Assembly: GCF_017349295.1 (NCBI RefSeq) | Contig: NZ_JAFMPK010000027.1 | Span: forward strand, 124,001 to 188,000 | DNA: 64,000 bases | From: Myceligenerans salitolerans | GTDB lineage: Bacteria > Actinomycetota > Actinomycetes > Actinomycetales > Cellulomonadaceae | Reading direction: 5' to 3' | Part shown: positions 12,197-42,108 of the stretch, piece after piece | Layout of the letters: every line of letters starts with the position of its first letter | Position numbering within the stretch: position 1 is the first letter of the stretch | Program-made: the position numbers and the translations under genes | The notes under the pieces: model-generated | Told to the model about the DNA's origin: nothing | The model's database searches: none | The model's input: only the letters and a program-made list of their open reading frames with translations

Positions 12197-14056
12197 GTGG
12201 CCGATGTGACCACCACTTCCTGGACCGCGGCGTCACGCCCCGGCCCCCGGATCCGCGGGCTCGACGGTCTGCGTGCGCTCGCCGTGGCCGCCGTCGTCGC
12301 CTACCACCTCGAACCCGGGTGGGTTCCGGGCGGGTTCGTCGGCGTCGACATGTTCTTCGTCGTCAGCGGGTTCCTCATCACCACGCTGCTGCTCCGCGAG
12401 ATCAGCACCACGAGCTGGGTCGACCTGCCCCGCTTCTGGACGCGGCGTGCCCGCCGGCTGCTCCCCGCCCTGCTGCTCGTGCTGCTCGTCTCGATTCCCG
12501 TGGCGCGACTGGTCGAGTCCGACCTCACCGTCGGGATCGGGCGCCAGCTGCTCGGCGCGGTGACGTTCGGCACCAACTGGCTGGAGATCTCCGCCGGCTC
12601 CGACTACTTCGACGAGACCGCTCCGGAGCTGCTGCGTCCCCTGTGGTCCCTGGCCATCGAGGAGCAGTTCTACCTCGCCTGGCCGGTGCTCCTCGTGGCC
12701 CTGCTGCTCGCCGTGCGGTCCGCGCGCCGGCGCACGCCGATCCTCGTCACCGCGGCCGTCGCCTCCGCGGCAGCGATGGCGTTGCTCCACACCGGCGACG
12801 ACCCCACCCGGGTCTACTACGGCACCGACACCCACGCGTTCGGCCTGCTGCTCGGCGCGGCTCTCGCACTGCGCCCGCCCGCGACCGGGACGCAGTTCGG
12901 CGGCATCGGGGCACGTCTGGTGCCACCGCTCGCCCTCGGCGGTCTGATCGCGCTCTGGGCCCTGCTGCGCGACGACAGCGCCCTGACCTACCCGCTCGGG
13001 CTCGCGCTCGCCTCGCTGCTGACGGTCGTGCTCGTGCTGGCGTGCGCCTCCGAGGTGCGGTGGCTGACCGTCGTCATGGAACTGGCGCCGCTGCGCTGGA
13101 TCGGTGAGCGGTCGTACGGGATCTACCTGTGGCACTGGCCCGTGCTGCTCGTGGTCGGGGCCGTGATACGGCAGGGGTGGGCCGTCGGCGGGACGGTGGT
13201 CGTCGCGACACTGGCCCTGGCCGCGGCGTCGTACCGGTTCGTGGAGATGCCGGTGCGGCGGCTCGGCTTCCGGGGCGCGTTCCGTGCGCTGTGGGCGCAG
13301 GTCGCGGCCCGGGTCCCGAACACACGCGTCTGGGCGGCCCGGGTCGCCGTCGGCGTCACCGTCCTGGCTCTCGCGGGGACGACGACGGCGGTCGCCACCG
13401 CACCTCGGGTCTCGGGTGCGCAGCAGGCGGTCGAGGCAGGGCTGGCCGTTCAGTCCGCCGCGGACCGCGACGGCGATGACGAGGGCGGGACGGGGACGGC
13501 CGGTTCCACCGCCGGTCCGGAGAGCGGCCTCGACCGGGCGGCAGCACCCGGAGCGGGCAGCGGCAGGCATGTCGTCGGGTTCGGCGACTCGGTACTGTCG
13601 GCCGCGGCGCCGGCGCTGATCGACCGCTGGCCCCGCTCCGACATCGACGCCGTGCCCAACCGCAAGTGGACCGACGCGCCGGGAATCGTTCGCGACGCGA
13701 AGAAGAAGGGCACGCTGCGCGACGTCGTCGTCCTCAACTTCGGTACCAACGCCGGGTTCCAGGAGGACGGGTCCGTCGCGGCGGCGGAGAAGACACTGGA
13801 CCTCATCGGCCCGGAGCGGCTGGTGGTGCTGGTGAACACGGTCGGGATCTCGTACTGGGTGCCGGACGCGAACGCCCGGCTCGAGAAGATTGCGGAAGGC
13901 CGGGCGAACGTCGTGGTCGTGGACTGGAACGCCGTGTGCGCGAAACGGCCCGAGCTGCTGCACGCGGACGCGACCCACCCCACCATGGAGGGCATCGCGG
14001 TGTACACGGACCAGATCCAGGAGGCCTTCGACGAGCTGGAGGAACGCTCGGCCTGA
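12197..14056 (+). CDS. Acyltransferase-3 family membrane protein with C-terminal SGNH domain (OafA-like)
   Basis: Probably O-acetylates a cell-surface glycan such as peptidoglycan or an exopolysaccharide. Residues 1 to about 380 form an acyltransferase-3 domain with about ten membrane helices; motifs are RGLDGLRALAVAAVVAYHL (the conserved R..D.LRA..V..V..YH), GGFVGVDMFFVVSGFLIT, WSLAIEEQFYLAWP and RSYGIYLWHWPVLL. After a flexible Asp/Gly/Thr-rich linker a periplasm-side SGNH hydrolase-like domain has GDSV (nucleophile Ser), FGTNAG (Asn block) and DATHPT (Asp/His). This two-domain layout is that of OafA/OatA proteins. The GTG at 12197 is chosen because the TAACGT element lies just before it. 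It converges on pcrA; the 106-bp gap (14057-14162) has no clear gene. Acyl group and acceptor are not known. Confidence 0.9.
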   Translation: MADVTTTSWTAASRPGPRIRGLDGLRALAVAAVVAYHLEPGWVPGGFVGVDMFFVVSGFLITTLLLREISTTSWVDLPRFWTRRARRLLPALLLVLLVSIPVARLVESDLTVGIGRQLLGAVTFGTNWLEISAGSDYFDETAPELLRPLWSLAIEEQFYLAWPVLLVALLLAVRSARRRTPILVTAAVASAAAMALLHTGDDPTRVYYGTDTHAFGLLLGAALALRPPATGTQFGGIGARLVPPLALGGLIALWALLRDDSALTYPLGLALASLLTVVLVLACASEVRWLTVVMELAPLRWIGERSYGIYLWHWPVLLVVGAVIRQGWAVGGTVVVATLALAAASYRFVEMPVRRLGFRGAFRALWAQVAARVPNTRVWAARVAVGVTVLALAGTTTAVATAPRVSGAQQAVEAGLAVQSAADRDGDDEGGTGTAGSTAGPESGLDRAAAPGAGSGRHVVGFGDSVLSAAAPALIDRWPRSDIDAVPNRKWTDAPGIVRDAKKKGTLRDVVVLNFGTNAGFQEDGSVAAAEKTLDLIGPERLVVLVNTVGISYWVPDANARLEKIAEGRANVVVVDWNAVCAKRPELLHADATHPTMEGIAVYTDQIQEAFDELEERSA

Positions 14057-20590: not shown

Positions 20591-22335
20591 CCCCCGTTCA
20601 CCGCGACGTCGGCCCACTGCGACCAGGCGGCGTTCCCCCACGGGTCGCGGGCCACGACGATGTACCGCTCGGTCGTGCCGGGCCTGGCCCCGGTGTCGGT
20701 GAACGACATGGTCTCGCCCTGCCAGAAGCTGCCGGTGCGCTCCCGGACCTCGATCGGTTCGTTCGACGTGGTCCCGCGGTACAGCGAGTAGGTGAGGGTG
20801 CCGTCGTCCCGGTCGTGGTTCGAGGGCCAGGTCGCCTTGACGGTGCCCCGCTGGGTCGACACCAGGCTCAGGCGGAACTTCGCGCCGCCGAGACGTGGTC
20901 CGTCGGCGTTGGGGGCGACGTCCCGCACGGCGAACCGCACGAGGCCCTGCTGCGGCCGGTTGTTCACCTTCGTGAACTCGCCGCCGTAGAGGAGGTAGTC
21001 GCCCGCGGCCGTGACGTCCCACGGGCCCTGGTTCTGTCCGGTGTAGGCGCCCGGTGTGAAGTCCGGGTACCAGTTGAGGATCTCGGGCCGGGGTGTGCCG
21101 GGGCTGTCGGGGTAGCTCTGGTCGTCGTCGGCGATGTTCTCGCCCTCGACGGTCCGCGTGGTGGCCGTACCGTGATGGAAGCTGCGCGGGTCGGTGTCCG
21201 GGAAGCCGCCGCTGGTGCTGCAGTCGTGCTTGTGGCTGGCCATGAAGACGGAGCCCCGGAACGGCACGACCGAGTAGGTGTCGCCGTGGCAGTCCTCCAG
21301 CCACACGAGCCGGCCGGTCTCCCAGCTGGCGGCGAACGTCCCCTCCGTGGAGCCCTTCTTGTTCCAGTGGTAGCCCGTGCCGTAGAAGTACTCGCCGTCG
21401 CCGGCGAGGGACAGGATCGCGGAGTACTGGCCCGCGTTCCGCACCACCTGGTTCACGGGCATCGGCAGCATCGCGCCGGTGGTGGCGTCGAGCCGGGCCA
21501 GGCCGTAGCCGGGGTTCTGCGAGCCGTTCACCGCGGTGAAGTTCCCTGCGATGACCACCGTGCCGCGGTCGGGCGAGATGAGGAGGTCCTGTACCGAGCG
21601 GTCGGCGACGTCGGCCCTGAAGGCCCGCGTGGTCGTGCCCGAGGAGTTGTCGACGGCGGCGACCCGCACGCGCTTCTGCTTGTTCACCGAGGTGAAGCTG
21701 CCGCCGAGGTAGACGTTGCCGCCGGCCACGTCCACGGTGTTGACCGCCGCGTTCACCGCCGGCCGGAAGCCGGTGAGCGCACCCGTGGAGGTGTTGAAGG
21801 CGGCCGCGCGGTAGCGGGTGGTGCCGCCCACGGACGTGAACCGTCCGACGGCGTACAGCCGCTTCCCGTCCGGCGACACCGCCAGATCCTTGACCTCGCC
21901 GTTCACCCGGGGTGCCCAGCCCTGGACCAGTTCTCCGCTGTTCAGGTCGTAGGCCAGGAGGTTGCTGCGCGCCACCTCCTGGGTCCCGGGTGCGGCACCC
22001 GCCGGGCGGGCCGCCGTGAAGGAGCCGCCCACGTAGACGACGTCGCCGACGACCTGCTGCGCCCACACGACGCCGTCGATCTGCACGGTGGGCAGGACGT
22101 CGGTGCTGACGGGCGCGGCCGGCACGCCGTCAGGGCCGGCGGGGGCGGCGGTGGTCCCGTTCCGTCCGGACTTGGACGACAGGCCCAGGTCGTCCAAGGC
22201 CGACCGCAGTCCCACCCCCGACTTCGAGACCGGGTCCTCGTCCGTGTCCGCGGCCGCGGACGGGCCGGCTCCCAGGGAGGCGGCGAGGAGAGCTCCGGCC
22301 GCGACGGCGGCCAGGGCGGCGGGTGCGATTCTCAT
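20587..22335 (-). CDS. Secreted beta-propeller protein with delta-60-type repeats and C-terminal FN3-like domain
   Basis: A predicted exported protein of 582 residues. Residues 1-29 form a signal peptide with cleavage after an AAA motif. A Ser/Pro/Gly linker follows, then at least five propeller-blade motifs of the form Y.GG.FT.V: YVGGSFTAA (101), YAVGRFTSVGG (161), YLGGSFTSVNK (209), IAGNFTAVNGS (262) and YGGEFTKVNN (450), each followed by an A-x-x-D/N strand. Two Cys (LEDCHGDT, KHDCSTSGG) may form a disulfide. From about 480 a fibronectin-III-like domain ends the protein. GGGGGAG is 9 nt before ATG 22335. The start overlaps the lipoprotein stop by 4 bp and the stop overlaps a GT2 start by 4 bp. 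An extracellular role in binding or organising the exported polymer is inferred only from this operon context. Confidence 0.8.
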   Translation of the reverse strand: MRIAPAALAAVAAGALLAASLGAGPSAAADTDEDPVSKSGVGLRSALDDLGLSSKSGRNGTTAAPAGPDGVPAAPVSTDVLPTVQIDGVVWAQQVVGDVVYVGGSFTAARPAGAAPGTQEVARSNLLAYDLNSGELVQGWAPRVNGEVKDLAVSPDGKRLYAVGRFTSVGGTTRYRAAAFNTSTGALTGFRPAVNAAVNTVDVAGGNVYLGGSFTSVNKQKRVRVAAVDNSSGTTTRAFRADVADRSVQDLLISPDRGTVVIAGNFTAVNGSQNPGYGLARLDATTGAMLPMPVNQVVRNAGQYSAILSLAGDGEYFYGTGYHWNKKGSTEGTFAASWETGRLVWLEDCHGDTYSVVPFRGSVFMASHKHDCSTSGGFPDTDPRSFHHGTATTRTVEGENIADDDQSYPDSPGTPRPEILNWYPDFTPGAYTGQNQGPWDVTAAGDYLLYGGEFTKVNNRPQQGLVRFAVRDVAPNADGPRLGGAKFRLSLVSTQRGTVKATWPSNHDRDDGTLTYSLYRGTTSNEPIEVRERTGSFWQGETMSFTDTGARPGTTERYIVVARDPWGNAAWSQWADVAVNGG

Positions 22336-23054
22336 GGACTTGACTCCCCCTCGAACAGTGCGACGTGCAGCTGCGGGTCGACGTCGATCTCGACGAGCAC
22401 CCGTCCGGGCCGGTCCTCGGGGACCGCGAACTCGTAGGTTCCGGTCACGGTCTGCCCGGCCGGCACGGAATCCGGGAGGTCCTCCTGCCCGGAACCGGAG
22501 AGCGAGCTCGCCGGTATGCGGTCGGGACCGTAGTACAGGTTCACGACGCTCGCACCAAGAGGGTGATATGTGCCGCCGGAGTTGATCACCGCTACCTCGA
22601 CCCGAACGGCCGGCCCCGCGATCTCGCCCGGCATGGAGGGTTTCGTCTCCGTCCACTCGACGGCGGCCAGCTTCACGGACAGGTCGTGCTCCGGGGCCTC
22701 GCCGATCGGGACCGCCTTCGAGGTGAGCGGGACGACGCCGGTCGTGGCGCGTCCCGCGACGACGATGTCGCCCACCTCACCGGAGTCGGACGACGCCCCG
22801 GCGTCCTTCTCGCCCTCCGTCGCGTCACCGTCGGCGGCGGGTGAGGCGGTTCCACGGCGTCCCGGCTCCGACGTCGCCGAGGAGGAGGCGCCGGCGGACG
22901 GGTGCACGCCGACGGCCCGGTTCTCCGCGGACCCGCACGCCGACAACGCGGTCGACAGCACGAACGAGACCGCGAGAACCGCGGTGGTGTTCCGGGTGAC
23001 CGCCCCCGTCCGGATTCTCTGCCGTGAGCCTCTCGTCCGGCTGAAGGATGTCAT
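22332..23054 (-). CDS. Putative lipoprotein, first gene of the polysaccharide operon
   Basis: 240 residues. The N-terminus has a twin-Arg-free charged region, a hydrophobic stretch TAVLAVSFVLSTA and a lipobox LSAC, so lipidation at about Cys40 is predicted. A Ser/Gly/Asp-rich low-complexity linker (about 45-95) spans the wall. The C-terminal domain (about 100-240) is all-beta-like, with LAAVEWTETKPSM, VRVEVAVINSGGTYHPL and GQTVTGTYEFAVPEDRP, similar to DUF4352/telokin-like immunoglobulin-type domains of Gram-positive lipoproteins. The start ATG 23054 has TAACCT 7 nt upstream (leaderless). Its stop overlaps the propeller start by 4 bp, suggesting that the two work together outside the membrane. 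The precise function is unknown. Confidence 0.75.
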   Translation of the reverse strand: MTSFSRTRGSRQRIRTGAVTRNTTAVLAVSFVLSTALSACGSAENRAVGVHPSAGASSSATSEPGRRGTASPAADGDATEGEKDAGASSDSGEVGDIVVAGRATTGVVPLTSKAVPIGEAPEHDLSVKLAAVEWTETKPSMPGEIAGPAVRVEVAVINSGGTYHPLGASVVNLYYGPDRIPASSLSGSGQEDLPDSVPAGQTVTGTYEFAVPEDRPGRVLVEIDVDPQLHVALFEGESSP

Positions 23055-23061
23055 GCGAGAA

Positions 23062-23067
23062 AGGTTA
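23062..23067 (-). promoter_or_regulatory. -10 element for the five-gene polysaccharide operon
   Basis: TAACCT on the minus strand, 7 nt before the lipoprotein ATG (leaderless). The divergent GT2 gene starts at 23157, leaving about 100 bp for both promoters. Confidence 0.4.
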
Positions 23068-23156
23068 TGGGTATGTGGCCGGATATTCTCGCCGGTGTCG
23101 CCATTTCACCCGAGCCAGCACTCGCCCTCGCCCCGCCGTTCCGGCAGGATGCACTG

Positions 23157-24134
23157 GTGCCCACCACCCCCAGACCGGCTGTCGTCGTCGTGAACTACGG
23201 GTCGGTACACCTCGCCACCGCCGCGCTGCGACCGTTCGCGGGCACGTCCTGGACCCGGGTACTCGTGGACTGCTGGAGTTCGCCGGCCGAGCGGGCCCGT
23301 GTCGTCGCGGCAGGCTCCGCGCAGGACTGGACGCTCGTCCTGCCCGGGAAGAACCTCGGGTTCGGCGGCGGCGCCGACGCCGGGATCCGCGCCGCGCGCG
23401 ACGCGGGTTGCGACGTGAGCCTGGTCCTGAACCCCGACGCGAGCCTCGGCCTCGACGCCGCGGACGCCCTGGTGGCCGACGTCGCCGACGACGCCCGGCT
23501 TCTCGTGGCCCCGGCCGTCCGTACCCCTCAGGGCCGTGACTGGTTCACCGGGGCCGTCGTCGACATGCGCCGGGGCCGCACCAGGAGAGGCACGCCCACC
23601 GGCCCGGACGACGTGCCCTGGGTCTCGGGCGCCTGCTTCGCCGCGTCGACCGAACGGCTCCTCGACGTCGGCGGGTTCGGCCCGGAGTACTTCCTGTACT
23701 GGGAGGACGTCGACCTCAGCGTGCGCTGGACGCGCTCCGGCGGACGCCTGGCCCTGCGGGACGACCTCACCTGCGTCCACGACGCCGGCGGCACGCAGGA
23801 GGGCACCGCACGAGGCACGGGGCACGGCAGGGGCAAGTCGCCGCAGTACCACTACTACAACACGCGCAACCGCCTGCTCTTCGCGTCGCGGCACGTGGCG
23901 CGGGAACGCTGGGGCGGCTGGCTGCGCGCCACACCGGGCCACACGCGCGAGGTCCTGCTCCGGGGCGGCCGCCGCGCCGTCGTCCGGCATCCGCTGCGGA
24001 CGCTGTGGCCCGCGCTGCGCGGCACCGCGGCCGGTCTGCGATGCCTGGCGACCGCCCGCCGCACCGAGCCCGCCGCCGCGGCTATCATGCCCGCGACCGC
24101 CGATCGGAAAGGCCTGATGGATGGAGCTCGCTGA
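23157..24134 (+). CDS. Glycosyltransferase family 2 (rhamnosyltransferase-like)
   Basis: A GT-A glycosyltransferase of 325 residues. AVVVVNYGSVHLATAALRPF opens the fold. WTLVLPGKNLGFGGGADAGI, LVLNPDASLG (metal-binding Asp), WVSGACFAASTERLLDVGGF and FLYWEDVDLSVRWTRSGGR (catalytic ED) match the rhamnosyl/galactofuranosyl-transferase branch of GT2. The GTG at 23157 is preferred over an in-frame ATG at 23067, because the homology begins there and the ATG would leave only 12 bp to the divergent gene. The 3' end overlaps the BY-kinase gene start (24121) by 14 bp. First gene of a four-gene plus-strand operon with chain-length regulator, flippase and phosphotransferase. Confidence 0.85.
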   Translation: MPTTPRPAVVVVNYGSVHLATAALRPFAGTSWTRVLVDCWSSPAERARVVAAGSAQDWTLVLPGKNLGFGGGADAGIRAARDAGCDVSLVLNPDASLGLDAADALVADVADDARLLVAPAVRTPQGRDWFTGAVVDMRRGRTRRGTPTGPDDVPWVSGACFAASTERLLDVGGFGPEYFLYWEDVDLSVRWTRSGGRLALRDDLTCVHDAGGTQEGTARGTGHGRGKSPQYHYYNTRNRLLFASRHVARERWGGWLRATPGHTREVLLRGGRRAVVRHPLRTLWPALRGTAAGLRCLATARRTEPAAAAIMPATADRKGLMDGAR

Positions 24135-25482
24135 CTACGTCGCCGCCCTGCGCAAGCGGTGGGTGGTCCTCGTCGTGGCCATGCTGGCCGGCGGCCTCGC
24201 GGGTCTCGGCTTCGCGCAGACCGTCCCGCCCCAGTACCGCGCCACCACCAGCGTCTTCGTCAGCCTCGAACGCGGCGACACCGTCTCGGAGCTCATGCAG
24301 GGGGCGACCTACACGCAGAACCTGGTGACCTCGTACGCGTCGCTCGCCACGATGCCCGCGGTGCTGAACCCCGTGATCACGGAGCTCGGACTGAACACGA
24401 CGCCGCGCGACCTGTCCGAGCAGATCGAGGCCGTGGTCCCGCTGGAGACCGCGATCATCGAGATCTCCGCCGAGGCCGAGGGCCCCTGGCAGGCCGCCGA
24501 GGTCGCGAACTCCGTGGCCCGCCACCTGTCCGAGACGGTGTCCGAGGTGTCGCCGTCGAACGCCGACGGGCGCAGCGCCGTCCGGCTGACCGTCGTCGCG
24601 ACGGCCGAGGCGCCCGAGTACCCCTTCGCCCCCAACACGCGGCTCCTCACGGCCGGCGGCGCGGCGGCGGGCCTCGGCGTCGGCGTGCTCGTCGCCATCG
24701 GCCTGGCGCTGTTCGACACGCGCATCCGGACCGCGAAGGACCTCCCGGCCGGCGACGACCTCGCCGTGCTCGGCACCGTGCCCCAGGTCCGCAAGGGCAC
24801 GGCCGAGCCGCAGCTGCTGGCCGAGTCGTACCGCCGGATCCGGACCAACCTGCAGTTCCTGGACGTCGGCGCGCCGGTCCGGTCGTTCGTCGTCACGTCG
24901 TCCGTCCCGGACGAGGGCAAGACGACGACGGCGATCGGCCTGGCCCACGCGCTGGCCGAACGCGGGTCCCGGGTACTGCTCATCGACGCCGACCTGCGCC
25001 GCCCGTCGCTGGCGGACCGGCTCGGGCTCGAGGGCACGGCGGGCCTGTCGACCGTCCTCATCGGCCGCGCCGACCTGGACGACGTGGTGCAGCAGGTGGG
25101 GCCGCCACGGTTCGCGGTCCTGACGGCCGGGGACCTCCCGCCCAACCCGGGCCGGCTCATCGAGGCCGAGTCGATGGACCAGCTCGTGCGGCAGGCCCGC
25201 ACGAGCTACGACGTCGTCATCTTCGACGTCCCCCCGCTGCTCCCGGTGACGGACGCCGCGCTTCTGGCACGCCGTACCCAGGGTGCCGTCGTCGTCGCGC
25301 GGGCGCGGAAGGTCCGCCGTGCCCAGCTGCACGACGCCATCGCGTCCCTGGACGCGATCGGCGCGACCTGCCTCGGGCTCATCGCCACCGGTGTCTCGCG
25401 CAAGGACCACGACTTCGACACGTACGCCGCCTACGGCGACGGGGACGCCGGAAGTCTCCGGCACCGGTGGCGCCGGACGTGA
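24121..25482 (+). CDS. Polysaccharide chain-length regulator fused to tyrosine autokinase (Wzz-BY-kinase)
   Basis: Controls chain length and export of surface polysaccharide; 453 residues. The N-terminal Wzz domain starts with MELADYVAALRKRW and a membrane helix (14-32). A second helix at about 175-197 closes the extracytoplasmic part. The cytoplasmic BY-kinase has Walker A SVPDEGKTTTA (261-271), Walker A' LLIDADLRRP (287-296) and Walker B VVIFDVPP (365-372), with the interaction arm ESYRRIRTNLQFL. The C-terminal tail has only two Tyr (435 and 438), a minimal cluster for autophosphorylation compared with enterobacterial homologues. Translation is coupled to the flippase gene through a 4-bp GTGA overlap. 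Confidence 0.93.
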   Translation: MELADYVAALRKRWVVLVVAMLAGGLAGLGFAQTVPPQYRATTSVFVSLERGDTVSELMQGATYTQNLVTSYASLATMPAVLNPVITELGLNTTPRDLSEQIEAVVPLETAIIEISAEAEGPWQAAEVANSVARHLSETVSEVSPSNADGRSAVRLTVVATAEAPEYPFAPNTRLLTAGGAAAGLGVGVLVAIGLALFDTRIRTAKDLPAGDDLAVLGTVPQVRKGTAEPQLLAESYRRIRTNLQFLDVGAPVRSFVVTSSVPDEGKTTTAIGLAHALAERGSRVLLIDADLRRPSLADRLGLEGTAGLSTVLIGRADLDDVVQQVGPPRFAVLTAGDLPPNPGRLIEAESMDQLVRQARTSYDVVIFDVPPLLPVTDAALLARRTQGAVVVARARKVRRAQLHDAIASLDAIGATCLGLIATGVSRKDHDFDTYAAYGDGDAGSLRHRWRRT

Positions 25483-26981
25483 CCGAGCACGACGTGGCGG
25501 AGGAGGGCGGGACACGGCAGAGCCTCGGGCGCCGTGCCGCACGGGGCGCCACGGTCACCGCCGCGTCCCAGGGCGCGCGCATCCTGCTCCAGGTCGCGGC
25601 GGTCGCGGTACTCGCCCGGCTGGTGCCGCCCGCCGAGTACGGGCTCGTGGCCATGGTCGCCGCCGTCGTCGGGATCGGGGAGATCCTGCGTGACGCCGGC
25701 CTGTCGTCCGCGGCGATGCGCGCCCCCGGCCTGACCCGGCAGCAGCGCGACAACCTCTTCTGGGTCAACGTCGCGATCGGCGCGGTCCTGTGCGTCGCGT
25801 GCTTCGCCGCGGCGCCACTGATCGCGCGCCTGTTCGACGAGCCCGCGTTGACGGGGATCTGCCGTGCGCTGGCCTTCGTCTTCCTCGTCAACGGGCTCGC
25901 CACCCAGCACAAGGCCGGACTCGTCCGGGAGATGCGTTTCCGGACCCTCGCCGTGGTGGAGGTGGCCGCGCCCGTGGTCGCCCTGGGTGCCGCGATCGCC
26001 GTCGGCGTCGCGACGCACGACCACCGCGCCGTCGTCGTCCAGCAGGTCGCGACGGCGGCCGTCACGCTCGCGGGCGTCTGGGTGGCGGGCCGGTGGCTTC
26101 CCGCCCGGCCACGGCGCGGCGCGGGTACCCGCGGCTTCTTCCGGTTCGGCGGTGGGTTGCTCGGCTCGCAGCTCGTCGGCTACGGGGCTGACAACCTGGC
26201 CACGTTCGTCATCGGGCTCTCCCTCGGCCCCGGCCCGCTGGGCCTCTACAACCGGGCGTACCACCTGCTCATGCGGCCTCTGACCCAGCTGCGCCAGCCG
26301 TCCACGACGGTGGCGCTGCCGGTGCTCGCCCGCCTCGCGGACGAGCCCGCCCGGTTCGACCGCATGCTGCTGCGCGGCCAGCAGGTGCTGGCCCTCCCGG
26401 TGGTCCTGGTGCTCGCGGTGGTCGTCGGGGCGTCCGACGTCGTGGTGGGGGTGTTCCTCGGGCCGGGCTGGGAGTCGGCGGCACCCCTCCTCGCGGCCTT
26501 CGCCGTGGCCGGCGGCTGCCAGACGCTCGCCTACGTCGGCTACTGGACGTACCTGGCGCGCGGGCTGAGCGGCACGCTGCTGGCCTACTCCCTGGTGACG
26601 GCCGTGCTCAAGATCGCCGGGGTGCTGATCGGCAGCTTCTGGGGAGTGAACGGTATCGCCGCCGGTTTCGCCGCGTCGGCACTGCTCGAGTGGCCGTTGT
26701 CGTTCTGGTGGCTGTCCCGCGTCACGTCGTATCCGGGCGGGCGGCTGGCCCTGGGCGGCCTGCGGATCCTGGCGCAGGCGCTGCCCGTCGGGCTCGCGGC
26801 GTGGCTCGCCGCGTCGCTGCCGGCGGCGGGCGCGGCGGGCTCGCCGGTGACCGGCCTGCTCCTCGCGATCGCGAGCGCGGTGCTGGTGTGGGCCCTGTGC
26901 CTGCTGGTGGCACCCCCGCTGCGGCGCGATGCCGTGCTCCTGGTCGAGGTGCTGCGCGCGGTCAGGAGCAGGGCCCGATGA
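25479..26981 (+). CDS. Wzx-like polysaccharide flippase (MOP superfamily)
   Basis: A membrane flippase of 500 residues with about 12-14 helices that moves lipid-linked repeat units across the membrane. It has the polysaccharide-synthesis (RfbX/TuaB) profile: GARILLQVAAVAVLARLVPPAEYGLVAM at the first helices (given here as its leading words), AGLSSAAMRAP, then GFFRFGGGLLGSQLVGYGAD and FVIGLSLGPGPLGLYNRAY, which are closest to the TuaB/WzxC-type flippases. GTG 25479 overlaps the BY-kinase stop by 4 bp and its TGA overlaps the next ATG. Works with the Wzy-like polymerase at 17230-18639. The cargo sugar is not predictable. Confidence 0.9.
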   Translation: MTEHDVAEEGGTRQSLGRRAARGATVTAASQGARILLQVAAVAVLARLVPPAEYGLVAMVAAVVGIGEILRDAGLSSAAMRAPGLTRQQRDNLFWVNVAIGAVLCVACFAAAPLIARLFDEPALTGICRALAFVFLVNGLATQHKAGLVREMRFRTLAVVEVAAPVVALGAAIAVGVATHDHRAVVVQQVATAAVTLAGVWVAGRWLPARPRRGAGTRGFFRFGGGLLGSQLVGYGADNLATFVIGLSLGPGPLGLYNRAYHLLMRPLTQLRQPSTTVALPVLARLADEPARFDRMLLRGQQVLALPVVLVLAVVVGASDVVVGVFLGPGWESAAPLLAAFAVAGGCQTLAYVGYWTYLARGLSGTLLAYSLVTAVLKIAGVLIGSFWGVNGIAAGFAASALLEWPLSFWWLSRVTSYPGGRLALGGLRILAQALPVGLAAWLAASLPAAGAAGSPVTGLLLAIASAVLVWALCLLVAPPLRRDAVLLVEVLRAVRSRAR

Positions 26982-28009
26982 CGGGGCGCGGTCCGCGGCA
27001 CCCCAGGTCGAGGGCGCGACTGGGCACGGGCGCGACGGCGTCCGGCCGGGCGAGCCTCGTCCGGCCCGCCATGGGGACGCGGAACGTCCTGGTTCCCGCC
27101 GGCTCCCGGCGCGGCGCGGCCGCCGGAATCTCGCTGATCACACGGTCACGCTGGTACGCCGTCACGTCGCAGTGGGCGCTGTGGGGAGCGGCCACGCTGC
27201 TCGGCCCGCGCGCGGTACCGGGCGAGCGGGTCCTGTGGGAGGCGCCCGGCGGTCCCGGCCTGTGGACGGCGCTGCGGGCTTCCCTGCCGGCGTTCGACGA
27301 GCTCGCGGTCTACTCGCGTCCGCAGGCGTCGCGGACGGGCATGGCGGTGCTCCTGCTGCGCGCCTCCCGGCCGGTCGGGTTCCTCAAGCTGCGCGAGGAC
27401 CCGGCCGAGCTCGACCGCGAGCAACGCGCGCTGTCCGCGTTCCCGGACGGGACGGCGGAGACCTTCCGGGTTCCTCGGGTGCTCGACCGGGGGGAGGTCG
27501 CCGGCCTGCACTGGTTGCTGATCACGGCGATGCCGCCGCGCCCCGCCGCCCCGGCGTGGCGCACCCCGGTCGGTCCGCTGCTGGCCGACGTACGGAACCA
27601 CCTGGGCCGGGTGCTGGACCGGCCCGCAGGGACTCCCGAGCACTGGGAGCCGATGCACGGCGACCTCACCGCCTGGAACCTGCGGCGCAACGGCCGGGGC
27701 CTTCCCTGGCTGATCGACTGGGAGGACGCCTCGTGGGCACCGCCCGGAGCCGACCTGTCCTACTACCGGGCGTCGAGCGTGGCCGCCTTCGGCCGCCCGC
27801 CGCGCGGAGCGGCGATGGGCGGCACGACGGCGGGCGAGGCAGCGCCCGGCCACACCGAGGCCGCCTCGTTCTGGCTGGACCGGTTGCGCGTCCGGTCGGA
27901 CGCCGACCACGACGCGGCGTTCACGGCTCGGCTCGTCGAGGAGTTCCGCCGGATCGCCGGCGTCACCACGGAAGGTCCCGGTTCAGGAGCTGGGCCAGCT
28001 CCTCGTTGA
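26978..28009 (+). CDS. APH/choline-kinase-fold phosphotransferase in polysaccharide operon
   Basis: 343 residues. Kinase-like landmarks: Lys of VGFLKLRE (about 137, ATP-binding position), the catalytic loop MHGDLTAWNL (HGD..xN, 227-234) and the metal-binding IDWEDAS (246-252), all diagnostic of the aminoglycoside phosphotransferase/choline kinase fold. The N-terminal ~60 residues are Arg-rich and unlike the family. It overlaps the flippase stop by 4 bp (ATGA) and its 3' end overlaps the convergent sulfotransferase gene by 47 bp. Context suggests phosphorylation of a sugar, lipid carrier or small alcohol used to decorate the polymer, rather than antibiotic resistance; this is inference. The substrate is unknown. 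Confidence 0.75.
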   Translation: MTGRGPRHPRSRARLGTGATASGRASLVRPAMGTRNVLVPAGSRRGAAAGISLITRSRWYAVTSQWALWGAATLLGPRAVPGERVLWEAPGGPGLWTALRASLPAFDELAVYSRPQASRTGMAVLLLRASRPVGFLKLREDPAELDREQRALSAFPDGTAETFRVPRVLDRGEVAGLHWLLITAMPPRPAAPAWRTPVGPLLADVRNHLGRVLDRPAGTPEHWEPMHGDLTAWNLRRNGRGLPWLIDWEDASWAPPGADLSYYRASSVAAFGRPPRGAAMGGTTAGEAAPGHTEAASFWLDRLRVRSDADHDAAFTARLVEEFRRIAGVTTEGPGSGAGPAPR

Positions 28010-28844
28010 ACGGGGCGTAGTGCCGGGTCAGTTCCTCCCGGGTGGCCGGGAGCAGGGTGCTGCTCGGAGCGGCGTTCCGCGGAGTGCGCGCCTCGGCCGA
28101 CAGCGGTGCCGGGTCGAGCCCCAGGAAAGCGGCGACACCGTCGCAGGCGCGCTGCGGATCGGCGTAGAACTCCTCGGCGACCAGGACGTGCACGCGCTCG
28201 GCCGGGTAGTGCTTCAGCCAGCGGCGCAGATGGGGCGCGTACTCCCCCTGCGCCCGGTACGACAGCTGCTCGTGCGCGTAGCTGCGGTAGCCCGGATCGG
28301 AGACGATCCGCTCCTCCTCCCCGGCGAGCCGTCCGGCCTCGGCCGCGAGCGCCTCCTCGAAGGTCTCGAGCGGCTCGGCGTGCTCCCGGCGACGCTCCCG
28401 GTAGTGGGAGAAGGCGCGCTCCACGGGGTCGCGCACGACGAGCAGGATCCGGGCGTCCGGCGCCTCCCGGGCCGCGCGTTCCGCGGCGAGCGGGTGGAAG
28501 AGGTAGTAGGGCGACCCTTCGCCGACGACCTTGCCGCCACGACGCGACGAGGCCGGGAAGTGCGACCGGTACCAGGCGCTTCCCCGGTCGTGGTGGGAGT
28601 CGAAGTAGTGCACGCCCTTGGTGTGGTTGTCCTTCGGGAGCCACCGGGCGCTGGGGAACAGGGGCATGACCCGCGGGTGGTCGAGCAGGGCGAAGTACAG
28701 GGAGGTGGAGCCGGCTCGCTTGCCGCCGATGAGCAGGAAGTCCGGGCCGCCGCGGAGTCTCGACGTCGCCATCCCGTAGCCGCGGATCGTGGCGCGTCCC
28801 GCGTCGATCACGGGACGGGGCAGCGCGGAGCTGGTCAGTCTCAC
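27963..28844 (-). CDS. PAPS-dependent sulfotransferase
   Basis: 293 residues with the two PAPS-binding motifs of the sulfotransferase family: the 5'-phosphosulfate loop FLLIGGKRAGSTSLY (37-50) and the 3'-phosphate motif LLVVRDPVERAFSHY (134-148). The intervening HYFDSHHDRGSAWYRSHFP and the conserved YRSYAHEQLSYRAQGEYAPHL resemble carbohydrate (heparan N-deacetylase/sulfotransferase-like) members rather than small-molecule ones. No signal peptide, so it acts on a cytoplasmic precursor. GTG 28844 overlaps the GT4 stop by 4 bp, so the pair is coupled; the 3' end overlaps the phosphotransferase gene by 47 bp on the other strand. It suggests that the exported polymer or a glycolipid is sulfated, which is uncommon in this group. 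Confidence 0.88.
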   Translation of the reverse strand: MRLTSSALPRPVIDAGRATIRGYGMATSRLRGGPDFLLIGGKRAGSTSLYFALLDHPRVMPLFPSARWLPKDNHTKGVHYFDSHHDRGSAWYRSHFPASSRRGGKVVGEGSPYYLFHPLAAERAAREAPDARILLVVRDPVERAFSHYRERRREHAEPLETFEEALAAEAGRLAGEEERIVSDPGYRSYAHEQLSYRAQGEYAPHLRRWLKHYPAERVHVLVAEEFYADPQRACDGVAAFLGLDPAPLSAEARTPRNAAPSSTLLPATREELTRHYAPFNEELAQLLNRDLPW

Positions 28845-30016
28845 GGCTGGAACACCCGCCTGCGCCGCCGCCGGGCGAACGGGCGGGGGCCGGGGGTGGT
28901 TCGCGCGGCCAGATCGCGCGCGAGCTGTTCGTAGCCGTCGACGACCACGTCCCAGTCGTAGTCCTTCGCCCGCCGGGCGAGGGCGGTGGCACGCGCTGCG
29001 GTGTCCTCCGGGTTGGCCTCGGCGGTGAGGACCTGTTCGGCCAGGTCCACCGGTGTGCGGAAGTACCGGCCGGCCTCCCGCAGCACCTCACGGTTGAACG
29101 GCACGTCGTACGCGATGGTGGAGGTGCCGCCGCCGATCGCGCGCAGCAGCGACGGGTTGGTGCCGCCCACGGAGTGGCCGTGCAGGTAGGTGAAGGCGTT
29201 GGCGTAGAGCTGGTCGAGCAGTTCCTGGTCCCACACGCCTCCGAGCAGCCGCACGCGGGGGTCGCCGTCGGCGAGGTCCTGGATGCGCCGCGTGTACTCC
29301 TCGGAGTACGGGGCGGAGCCGACGACGACGAGCGGGAGCTCGGCGTCGTTCGCCACGTAGCCCTCGACGACGACGTCGACGTGGTTCTCCGGTTCGAACC
29401 TGGCGACGACGAGGTGGTAGCCGCCGGGTGTCAGGTCCAGCTCGGCGAGGCGGTCGCTGCCGGCCGCGGAGAGGTCGGGGGCCCCGTACGTGAGGAGGCG
29501 GCTTCCGACGTCGTACTGGGTGGCGTAGTAGTCGGCGATGCCCTGGGCGTCGGCGATGAGGGCGTCGGAGAGGCGGACGGACGCCGTCTCCATCTCCCGG
29601 TAGTAGCGCTTGCCCACCAGCCCCCACTTGGCGCGCCGCCACTCGAGGCCGTCGACGTGCGTGGCGACCGGGACGCGGGCGGCGCGCAGCACGGGGAGCA
29701 GGGGCGCGTTGGCCGCGTTGAACACGATGGCGGCGTCGGTGCGGTGGGCGACGAGGTGGGCCACCGACAGGGCGGTGTGGCTCAGCGTCTCCAGGGAGCG
29801 GCGGCGCATCGCGGGGAGGACGACGCGTTCCATGCCCAGGTAGGTCGGGGGGTCGGACACCTGCTGCTCGGCGGGGCGGCGGCAGTACACGCGCACCTGG
29901 TGGCCGCGGTCCGCGAGCCGCGACCCGATCTCCTCGACGGCCGTCTCGAAGCCCCCGTACCGCGCGGGCACACCTCGGGTTCCGATCATCGCGATGCGCA
30001 GGGGTTCCATCGGCAT
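28841..30016 (-). CDS. Glycosyltransferase family 4 with DUF1972 N-terminal domain (rhamnosyltransferase-like)
   Basis: 391 residues, GT-B fold. The N-terminus IAMIGTRGVPARYGGFETAV is the hallmark of DUF1972 glycosyltransferases such as the beta-1,4-rhamnosyltransferases that act early in capsule and rhamnan synthesis. The donor domain shows HLVVARFEPENHVDVVVEGY, VRLLGGVWDQELLDQLYANA and HGHSVGGTNPSLLRAIGGGT with the conserved Glu replaced by the NPSLL form. Two close ATGs (30016 and 30010) are possible. TACTCT ends 7 nt before 30016, favouring a leaderless start there, while GGAG could serve 30010. The stop overlaps the sulfotransferase start, so these two genes form an operon. Confidence 0.9.
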   Translation of the reverse strand: MPMEPLRIAMIGTRGVPARYGGFETAVEEIGSRLADRGHQVRVYCRRPAEQQVSDPPTYLGMERVVLPAMRRRSLETLSHTALSVAHLVAHRTDAAIVFNAANAPLLPVLRAARVPVATHVDGLEWRRAKWGLVGKRYYREMETASVRLSDALIADAQGIADYYATQYDVGSRLLTYGAPDLSAAGSDRLAELDLTPGGYHLVVARFEPENHVDVVVEGYVANDAELPLVVVGSAPYSEEYTRRIQDLADGDPRVRLLGGVWDQELLDQLYANAFTYLHGHSVGGTNPSLLRAIGGGTSTIAYDVPFNREVLREAGRYFRTPVDLAEQVLTAEANPEDTAARATALARRAKDYDWDVVVDGYEQLARDLAARTTPGPRPFARRRRRRVFQP

Positions 30017-40584: not shown

Positions 40585-42108
40585 GTGACGACAGAGGCCG
40601 TGATGGCCGGGGCCCCAGCCGTATCCGCCGGCAGCACGACAACCCAGCACGAGGCCGCCCCCGGCTCCCTGCCCGCAGCCGCCGCCGACCTCCGGTCCGT
40701 ACCGGTCCGGTGGTGGTCGCGGCATCGCGTGCTGGTCCGGCTGACCGACGCCCTCGTCGTGGTCGGCGCGGCGCTCGTCGCCTCACTGGTGCACCTCGCG
40801 CGCCCGGTCGGCGAGGCGCACCCCATGACCGCGCCGGTGCTCCTGTCGACGGTGGTCGCCTGGCTGGTCGCGCTGGAGTGGGGCAAGTCCTACGACTGGC
40901 ACCTCTTCGGCGGGGGCATGGCCGAGTACCGACGGGTGCTCGGTGCCACCGGGAAGACGTTCGGCGTCGTGGCGGTCGCCGCCTGGCTCACCGGGCTCAC
41001 GGACGCGCGGGCCGTGGTGCTCGTGACGTTCGTGCTCGGCGTGGCCGGCCTCCTGGCGGCACGGTTCTCCTGGCGCCGCCGGATCCTCCGCCTGCGGGAG
41101 CAGCGCGCGGCCTGCGTCACGGACGTCGTCGCCGTGGGGCACCCGGCGCAGGTGTCCCGGTTCGTCGAGCGGGTCACCGCCGCACCGCACCACGGACTCC
41201 GCGTGGTCGGGGCGTGCGTCCCCGCCGGAGAGGCCGACGCCGGCGACCTGATCGACGGCGTCCCGGTGCTCGGCGTCCCGGACGAGGCGGGTGAGGCCGC
41301 GGAACGGGCCGGCGCCAGTGCCGTGGTCGTGAGCGGGTCCCACGAGGTCACCTCCGACGTCGTCCGCCGCCTCGGCTGGGCGCTCGAGGAACGCGGCGTC
41401 AGCCTGATGCTCACGACCGAGCTCACGGACATCGCTCCCCCGCGCATCAGCGTGTCCCGGGTTCCGGGGATGTCGCTGCTGCACGTCGACCTCCCGCGGT
41501 TCACGGGGCCCAAGTACGTCGTGAAGCAGGTGATGGACGGCGTGCTGGCTCTCGTCCTGGCCGTGATCGCCGCGCCGCTGATCGGAGTTCTCGCCCTCGC
41601 CGTCGCCCTGACGAGCCGCGGGTCGCCGTTCTACGTCTCCGAGCGCGTGGGGCGGGACGGCCGCATCTTCTCCATGGTCAAGCTCCGGACGATGCACCAG
41701 GACGCCGACCGCCTCGTCCCCATGCTGTCCGCCGTCGACGACGGCGCGGGCGTCCTGTTCAAGATGCGCGAGGACCCGCGTGTCACGTCGATCGGGCGGG
41801 TGCTGCGCCGCTACTCGCTCGACGAGCTGCCGCAGCTCTTCAACGTCCTCGCCGGCCACATGAGCCTGGTCGGCCCGCGCCCGCCGCTCCCGCACGAGGC
41901 CGCCGAGTACGAGGAACGGATGCGCCGCCGCCTGCTGGTCAAGCCGGGCATGACCGGCCTGTGGCAGGTTCGCGGCCGCTCGGACCTGTCCTGGGAGGAG
42001 ACCGTCCGGTGCGACGTGTACTACGCCGAGAACTGGACGCCTCAGCTCGACCTGCTCATCCTCGCGGACACGGCCCGAGCGGTGATCAGCGCGAAGGGCG
42101 CCTACTGA
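40585..42108 (+). CDS. Exopolysaccharide polyprenyl glycosylphosphotransferase (priming transferase, WbaP/WcaJ type)
   Basis: Starts repeat-unit synthesis by moving a sugar-1-phosphate onto undecaprenyl phosphate. It has 507 residues. About four to five N-terminal helices (40-150) are followed by a CoA-binding-like domain (about 170-290). The catalytic bacterial sugar transferase domain runs from about 310: KYVVKQVMDGVLAL (re-entrant helix), SPFYVSERVGRDGRIFSMVK, KLRTMHQDAD, DELPQLFNVLAGHMSLVGPR and LLVKPGMTGLWQVRGRS, all conserved. GAGGGG precedes GTG 40585 by about 10 nt. It probably feeds the Wzx/Wzy genes at 17-30 kb; no second priming transferase is seen in the window. Confidence 0.94.
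   Translation: MTTEAVMAGAPAVSAGSTTTQHEAAPGSLPAAAADLRSVPVRWWSRHRVLVRLTDALVVVGAALVASLVHLARPVGEAHPMTAPVLLSTVVAWLVALEWGKSYDWHLFGGGMAEYRRVLGATGKTFGVVAVAAWLTGLTDARAVVLVTFVLGVAGLLAARFSWRRRILRLREQRAACVTDVVAVGHPAQVSRFVERVTAAPHHGLRVVGACVPAGEADAGDLIDGVPVLGVPDEAGEAAERAGASAVVVSGSHEVTSDVVRRLGWALEERGVSLMLTTELTDIAPPRISVSRVPGMSLLHVDLPRFTGPKYVVKQVMDGVLALVLAVIAAPLIGVLALAVALTSRGSPFYVSERVGRDGRIFSMVKLRTMHQDADRLVPMLSAVDDGAGVLFKMREDPRVTSIGRVLRRYSLDELPQLFNVLAGHMSLVGPRPPLPHEAAEYEERMRRRLLVKPGMTGLWQVRGRSDLSWEETVRCDVYYAENWTPQLDLLILADTARAVISAKGAY

Follow-up and report, generated by a model that had tools for sequence, protein, structure and literature searches.

Matrix proteins encoded together with their polysaccharide are already known as a kind of system. 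In Vibrio cholerae, Bap1 and RbmC attach to the matrix polysaccharide by their propeller and to surfaces by other modules, with rbmC located between the vps clusters and bap1 elsewhere among unrelated genes, according to excerpts of PMC10102183. In Streptomyces, the copper radical oxidase GlxA works with the cellulose synthase CslA, as excerpts of PMC11022532 describe. Extracellular domains including propellers, coupled to lipocone enzymes and distinct from the protein pair studied here, are treated in excerpts of PMC12419801, and the DUF5122 domain appears in one paper of the open-licence full-text literature, on repeat-protein modeling (PMC8078820). The DUF5122 (delta-60) and Rax2 propellers, PF17164 and PF12768, belong to the same repeat family as the propeller studied here; both families are defined by the repeat alone, and Pfam gives neither a function nor a partner for them.

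Here we report a computational analysis of a membrane-anchored protein, LIP, and a secreted propeller, PROP, encoded in the window, a 64,000-nucleotide stretch (G000:C22:124001-188000) of the 4.58 Mb genome of Myceligenerans salitolerans, and in related genomes. To our knowledge, the surface holding of Wzy-made polymer in actinobacteria is poorly understood. We found that the pair is widespread in the order and accessory to exopolysaccharide (EPS) loci.

By the excerpted account, PROP resembles RbmC and Bap1 in being secreted and modular, with a propeller and lectin-type modules (the latter in PROP relatives), and the gene placement is similar as well, with a short PROP in the EPS operon and a long paralogue on another contig. 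Unlike PROP, RbmC and Bap1 are eight-bladed proteins with beta-prism modules from a Gram-negative organism, and the excerpts of PMC10102183 mention no membrane-anchored partner. Comparison of the profile A2 with PDB sequences at E<=10 gave five weak matches, none of them named Bap1 or RbmC, and no beta-prism or crystallin family was seen in the scanned propellers among the 25 of 26 families listed. The best reading is that PROP would work like RbmC/Bap1 but is not detectably related to them. The likeness to CslA-GlxA, again as excerpted, lies in an actinobacterial protein outside the cytoplasm, anchored in the membrane and linked to a polysaccharide synthase; unlike that system, the window locus is of the Wzx/Wzy type and the window propeller (P0002) has no copper radical oxidase match. 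A GlxA-type copper radical oxidase was rejected as a candidate, P0002 having no galactose-oxidase-like match in Pfam or NCBIfam. The original prediction knew of no described system of such composition; this holds for the open-licence full-text literature, in which we found no description of the LIP-PROP partnership, although the similarly working RbmC/Bap1 of V. cholerae are known from the excerpts cited above.

The operon and its exopolysaccharide locus

LIP (P0001, 22332..23054) consists of a lipobox, a Ser/Thr/Pro-rich linker and a C-terminal DUF4352-like domain. It is followed by PROP (P0002, 20587..22335), a secreted DUF5122/Rax2-like propeller with an FN3-like end, which at 582 aa is a short form without LamG and PKD modules, by a GT2 (P0003, 19634..20590) and a GT4 (P0004, 18636..19637) glycosyltransferase, both assigned by Pfam, and by a Wzy-like polymerase with nine hydrophobic segments (P0005, 17230..18639), all on the minus strand. 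Neither P0001 nor P0005 has a Pfam match at E<=0.1; the "Wzy-like" label, proposed earlier for P0005, stands because Wzy_C matches 7 of 23 of its relatives (best 1.4e-8).

The four 4-bp overlaps reported for these five genes were confirmed from the coordinates, 23054 down to 17230, and read ATGA, ATGA, GTGA and GTGA along LIP/PROP/GT2/GT4/Wzy; both GTGA overlaps hinge on picking a GTG start. The original prediction had treated them as strict coupling, a view that we abandoned as special evidence: such overlaps are ordinary in the window, where, by the gene calls of our own script, a 4-bp overlap is possible in 13 of 34 neighboring same-strand pairs, the four of the operon included. The ATGA at LIP/PROP and PROP/GT2, as well as the GTGA at GT2/GT4, are kept in all four genus loci (the GT4 match of L064 starts already upstream of the GTGA), and the GT4/Wzy junction reads GTGA in two and TTGA in two (the Wzy match of L065 starts further on). 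Among the loci read, the five-gene order is seen in the four genus genomes and nowhere else; the nearest approach in other family loci is L078, where Wzy is inverted. A check of the gene order across relatives thus found the exact order to be genus-only, whereas linkage to repeat-unit polysaccharide loci holds across relatives for LIP and PROP alike. Of named relatives, the closest found was Myceligenerans pegani, with 80% identity in the best segment and the whole propeller matched.

The window region is a Wzx/Wzy-type exopolysaccharide locus, in which a flippase, a PCP/kinase, an initiating transferase and glycosyltransferases are all present by Pfam and NCBIfam. On the plus strand, a divergent neighbor encodes a GT2-like protein (23067..24134; weak Pfam match, below the cut-off), followed by a Wzz chain-length domain fused to a BY-kinase domain (24121..25482) and a Wzx-type flippase (25467..26981), and the initiating sugar transferase (Bac_transf) is located at 40585..42108. 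On the minus strand, a sulfotransferase domain protein (27963..28844) and a GT4 (DUF1972) glycosyltransferase (28841..30016) are encoded. The sulfotransferase gene adjoins the EPS genes, and sulfation of the polymer or of a partner is a possibility. At 12197-14056, the window encodes an Acyltransferase-3 protein with a weak C-terminal GDSL-lipase match, a candidate polymer O-acetylase. A second Wzz/BY-kinase protein of the same genome (G000:C43:6869-8203) is 45% identical and suggests a second EPS locus.

Distribution of the pair and its genomic neighborhood

Single-sequence searches of 200 family genomes at E<=0.001 gave propeller matches in 79 and lipoprotein matches in 62, and 54 of 63 lipoprotein matches are located 0-351 bp upstream of a propeller match on the same strand. 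A LIP profile built from 30 sequences (E<=1e-13) identified 68 LIP genomes in this sample, including each of the 67 genomes whose propeller match was strong (E<1e-79), 12 genomes with weaker propellers having been removed (79 to 67). Among 297 genomes of the order, a strong full-length propeller was found in 45 and a strong LIP in the same 45, with 12 families represented; 34 of their 50 LIPs are immediately upstream of a propeller on the same strand (distance <700 bp), and a propeller is found within 6 kb of 48. The "strong" cut-offs behind these counts were placed at visible gaps after the results had been seen (in the order search, 457 to 353 bits for the propeller and 3e-17 to 3.8e-11 for LIP), with weaker rows removed before counting. 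Altogether, the pair is present in 104 distinct genomes, 67 from the family sample and 37 from other families of the order, counts that are not independent since the sampled genomes are phylogenetically related. Copy numbers may be underestimated, since the genome search scored just a subset of first-look candidates. Strong propellers without LIP were absent from the family and order samples, and LIP without a propeller occurs in one genome, G177, the only such case in the family sample, where LIP (L195, G177:C11) lies among EPS genes and the 19 kb read contained no propeller.

With the cut-off at E<=0.001, the LIP profile reaches 239 of 297 order genomes, the weak matches listed covering mostly the hydrophobic and linker part. 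In a phylum sample (296 genomes, E<=1e-40), the best propeller stretches outside the order are partial, covering approximately the first 320 of 516 positions; for one of them, L196, the second half was found too.

Neighborhoods were read in the window and at 40 family and 20 order loci. Gene calls were made with a home-made GC3 script that missed lower-GC loci and some starts, and the marker counts given here come from six-frame searches that replaced those calls. At least one of Wzy, Wzz/kinase, Wzx and initiating transferase accompanies LIP in 37 of 40 family loci (at least two in 32), and a glycosyltransferase likewise in 37 of 40. Because the EPS profiles came from family loci, the 20 order loci provide a fairer comparison; here at least one core marker was found in 15 (at least two in 10) and a glycosyltransferase in 19. 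Of 20 control regions, hand-chosen at round coordinates in 11 family genomes, one has at least one core marker, none has two or more, and one has a glycosyltransferase. Three of the 40 family loci and five of the 20 order loci lack all four core markers, and three of these eight are on short or cut contigs. The predicted tie of both extracytoplasmic proteins to polysaccharide loci is thereby upheld (37/40 and 15/20 vs 1/20), and the opposite situation, a pair that in most relatives lies away from polysaccharide genes, was looked for and not found.

A Wzz/BY-kinase protein is encoded in all 67 family genomes with the pair and in 52 family genomes without it. Because of these 52 genomes, the pair is an accessory module and not a general biosynthetic step; it follows the polysaccharide machine, not the reverse. 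Mirror-tree correlations on common pairs were 0.84 for LIP-PROP, 0.85 for PROP-Wzy and 0.84 for Wzz-Wzy, with partial correlations of 0.58 for LIP-PROP given Wzz, 0.56 for PROP-Wzz given LIP and 0.17 for LIP-Wzz given PROP. Mirror-tree was rejected as a LIP-PROP-specific signal, co-divergence being not clearly above that of other locus genes.

Domain make-up and two propeller types

The lipobox noted earlier in the window LIP was recognized by eye as LSAC. The designation "lipoprotein" does not extend to the homologues as a conserved or defining trait, and it was rejected as such, most of them being held by a transmembrane (TM) helix: a scripted classification of 63 rows, one locus being counted twice (L098, L107), gave 41 TM, 10 lipobox and 12 unclassified, and four of the 41 TM rows look like lipobox by eye. 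The LIP anchor is convertible, and the rest of LIP is a linker with a DUF4352-like domain. DUF4352 matches 22 of 30 LIP relatives at E<=1 (best 1.7e-4), P0001 itself having no match.

PROP starts with a Sec-type signal peptide (by eye). P0002 passes the Pfam cut-off of DUF5122 (27.9 bits, cut-off 27), in agreement with the delta-60 propeller originally predicted, and falls below that of Rax2 (26.1 vs 28.8 bits); DUF5122 was found in 23 of 34 scanned propellers at E<=0.001, and Rax2 in 32 of the 34. Laminin_G_3 and PKD_4 were each detected in 33 of these 34, all from family loci, the exception being P0002 of the window. An FN3 end had also been predicted; P0002 has no Pfam fn3 match, although fn3 was found in 4 of 34 family propellers. 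Complete propellers of family loci outside the genus are about 1000-2200 aa long and often in tandem, with one to three PROP copies per family locus read, usually with one LIP, and among propeller proteins from the order's remaining families some reach no more than about 620-770 aa. Neither a C-terminal hydrophobic anchor nor an LPXTG-like motif is present in any of 75 complete propellers.

About seven blades were counted by eye. AlphaFold2 gave a pLDDT of 42.6 for P0002 alone and, for residues 76-482 with the M. pegani homologue only, a pTM of 0.53, with mostly pLDDT 50-84 in the first ~200 residues and low values in the rest. Most of the 50 PDB matches listed for this low-confidence model are proteins titled or known as propellers (best E 3.7e-8), and the model may be described as propeller-like. 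Profile searches of PDB sequences gave no convincing relative, the best A2 match starting at a His-tag, and no relative was found in a viral collection scanned with two peptide patterns.

In all four genus genomes, a long propeller is encoded away from LIP (L103-L106), with EPS markers and glycosyltransferases in none of the four loci in the stretch read. The copy in the window's genome (L103, 5438-8701 of G000:C14) is 65% identical to P0002 over the match and has LamG and PKD; the downstream genes resemble fabD, fabH and fabF.

A conserved stretch of PROP spans D348 to C372 (DCHGDTY ... HxHxC; 21220..21294, minus strand), in blade 6 by eye. Its motif, with residues numbered as in P0002, is C349-x-G351-D352-x-Y354 ... 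H368-x-H370-x-C372. By six-frame searches, C349, G351 and D352 are each present in 62/62 family-locus rows and Y354 in 61/62, these rows taking in the four orphan paralogues. In 27 order rows, C349, G351, H368, H370 and C372 are invariant, D352 and Y354 are kept in 26, and D348 and H350 in 19. A third set of 20 rows comprised weaker propeller matches picked for having no strong LIP alongside. Here C349, H370 and C372 are kept in 19 and G351 and H368 in all 20, D352 is replaced by Ala in 18 and Y354 by Gln in 18. These CLGATQ...HxHxC propellers form a second subfamily (L179-L193 and L196-L198, with L196 from the same class and another order), homologous to PROP and differing by the absence of LIP from the locus and by the two substitutions at D352 and Y354. 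LIP was not seen in any locus of the 20 rows, genomes outside the order being checked at the locus only.

Thus, GDxY propellers largely occur with the membrane partner and GATQ propellers largely without it, and this two-residue signature largely separates the two types. Two GATQ-set exceptions, L184 and L186, come from genomes with LIP and a GDxY propeller some 20-30 kb off; the orphan paralogues carry GDxY with no LIP beside, and L194 of the GATQ set is of another type. A Wzz/BY-kinase or sugar-transferase gene is present in 13 of 18 GATQ-type loci. The split in sequence suggests that the motif blade may contact LIP, or a ligand common to LIP and PROP.

Proposed role and alternatives

We propose, at about even confidence, that LIP and PROP constitute a surface-retention module of the Wzx/Wzy exopolysaccharide locus, a polymer-binding matrix protein with its membrane tether. 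PROP, secreted and without an anchor of its own, would grip the polymer by its propeller, and the LamG and PKD modules carried by family relatives and by the paralogue encoded elsewhere in the genome would face outward as lectin and spacer. LIP, membrane-anchored through a lipid or a transmembrane helix, would project its DUF4352-like domain on the Ser/Thr/Pro linker and hold PROP, and hence the polymer, close to the cell, PROP acting as a matrix protein. Retention at the cell or adhesion to surfaces is the simplest reading because the paired proteins face outward, one of them is membrane-bound, the other has no anchor but carries lectin-type modules in relatives, and the polymer machine exists elsewhere without them. 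If true, the pair would be to Gram-positive bacteria what the "double-sided tape" adhesins are to Vibrio cholerae. Several observations count against retention. The CxGDxY...HxHxC blade is near-invariant, more conserved than would be due to a polymer-specific lectin site if the polymers differ; the window PROP lacks LamG and PKD, with only the propeller and the FN3-like end left; and the long propellers of the genus lie away from LIP and EPS genes. Further counterpoints are the short propeller proteins in other families of the order, the unspecific LIP-PROP co-divergence and the eight loci without core markers. The original prediction had the pair acting on, anchoring or length-sorting the polymer. 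Anchoring the polymer or acting on it is plausible, and length sorting was rejected as unlikely, since the locus already has a Wzz-kinase (24121-25482) and such a protein is present in the 52 pair-less family genomes.

The conserved blade could also belong to an enzyme. It is possible, though we consider it unlikely, that PROP represents an undescribed carbohydrate-active family that trims or modifies the polymer or ligates it to wall or protein; the CxGDxY/HxHxC blade would then be its active or metal site and LIP a membrane-bound cofactor. Enzymes with a propeller fold are common, C, G, D, Y, H, H and C are near-invariant in 89 LIP-type propeller rows (four orphan paralogues included), and invariant polar or aromatic residues are mildly enriched in top-face loops (15/165 vs 8/232 other positions, p 0.027, blades by eye). 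However, this enrichment is weak and fails against the bottom face alone (p 0.10), P0002 matches no enzyme family of Pfam or NCBIfam, the two invariant Cys may simply form a disulfide, and the LIP-less related propellers lose D352 and Y354 yet keep C, H, H and C.

The operon shared with Wzy in the genus, the correlation of PROP and Wzy distances (0.85 on common pairs) and the CslA-GlxA precedent, as excerpted in PMC11022532, would fit a part of the assembly machine that binds the Wzy or Wzz protein outside the membrane and tunes polymerization or export, as GlxA does for CslA. We regard this as improbable: against it stand the 52 family genomes with Wzz/BY-kinase and no pair, the variable copy number of PROP with its large and variable tails, and the missing copper-oxidase domain match in P0002. 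Slightly more doubtful still is that the pair is an undescribed, obligate device fixing Wzy-made polysaccharide to the Gram-positive membrane, in which the CxGDxY/HxHxC blade would catalyze ligation, transferring the polymer covalently to a protein or envelope acceptor instead of only binding it.

A locus that makes a surface glycoprotein, with PROP or LIP as the protein acceptor of its glycan, would agree with the Ser/Thr/Pro-rich LIP linker, the PKD-rich PROP tails and the coupling in one locus, but seems distinctly improbable, the short window PROP lacking such a tail and no oligosaccharyltransferase appearing among the Pfam-scanned neighbors. Finally, coincidental operon packing in a GC-rich genome, which the frequent 4-bp overlaps might suggest, is scarcely credible, being contradicted by the co-occurrence counts (45/45 and 67/67) and by an EPS location far above that of the controls.
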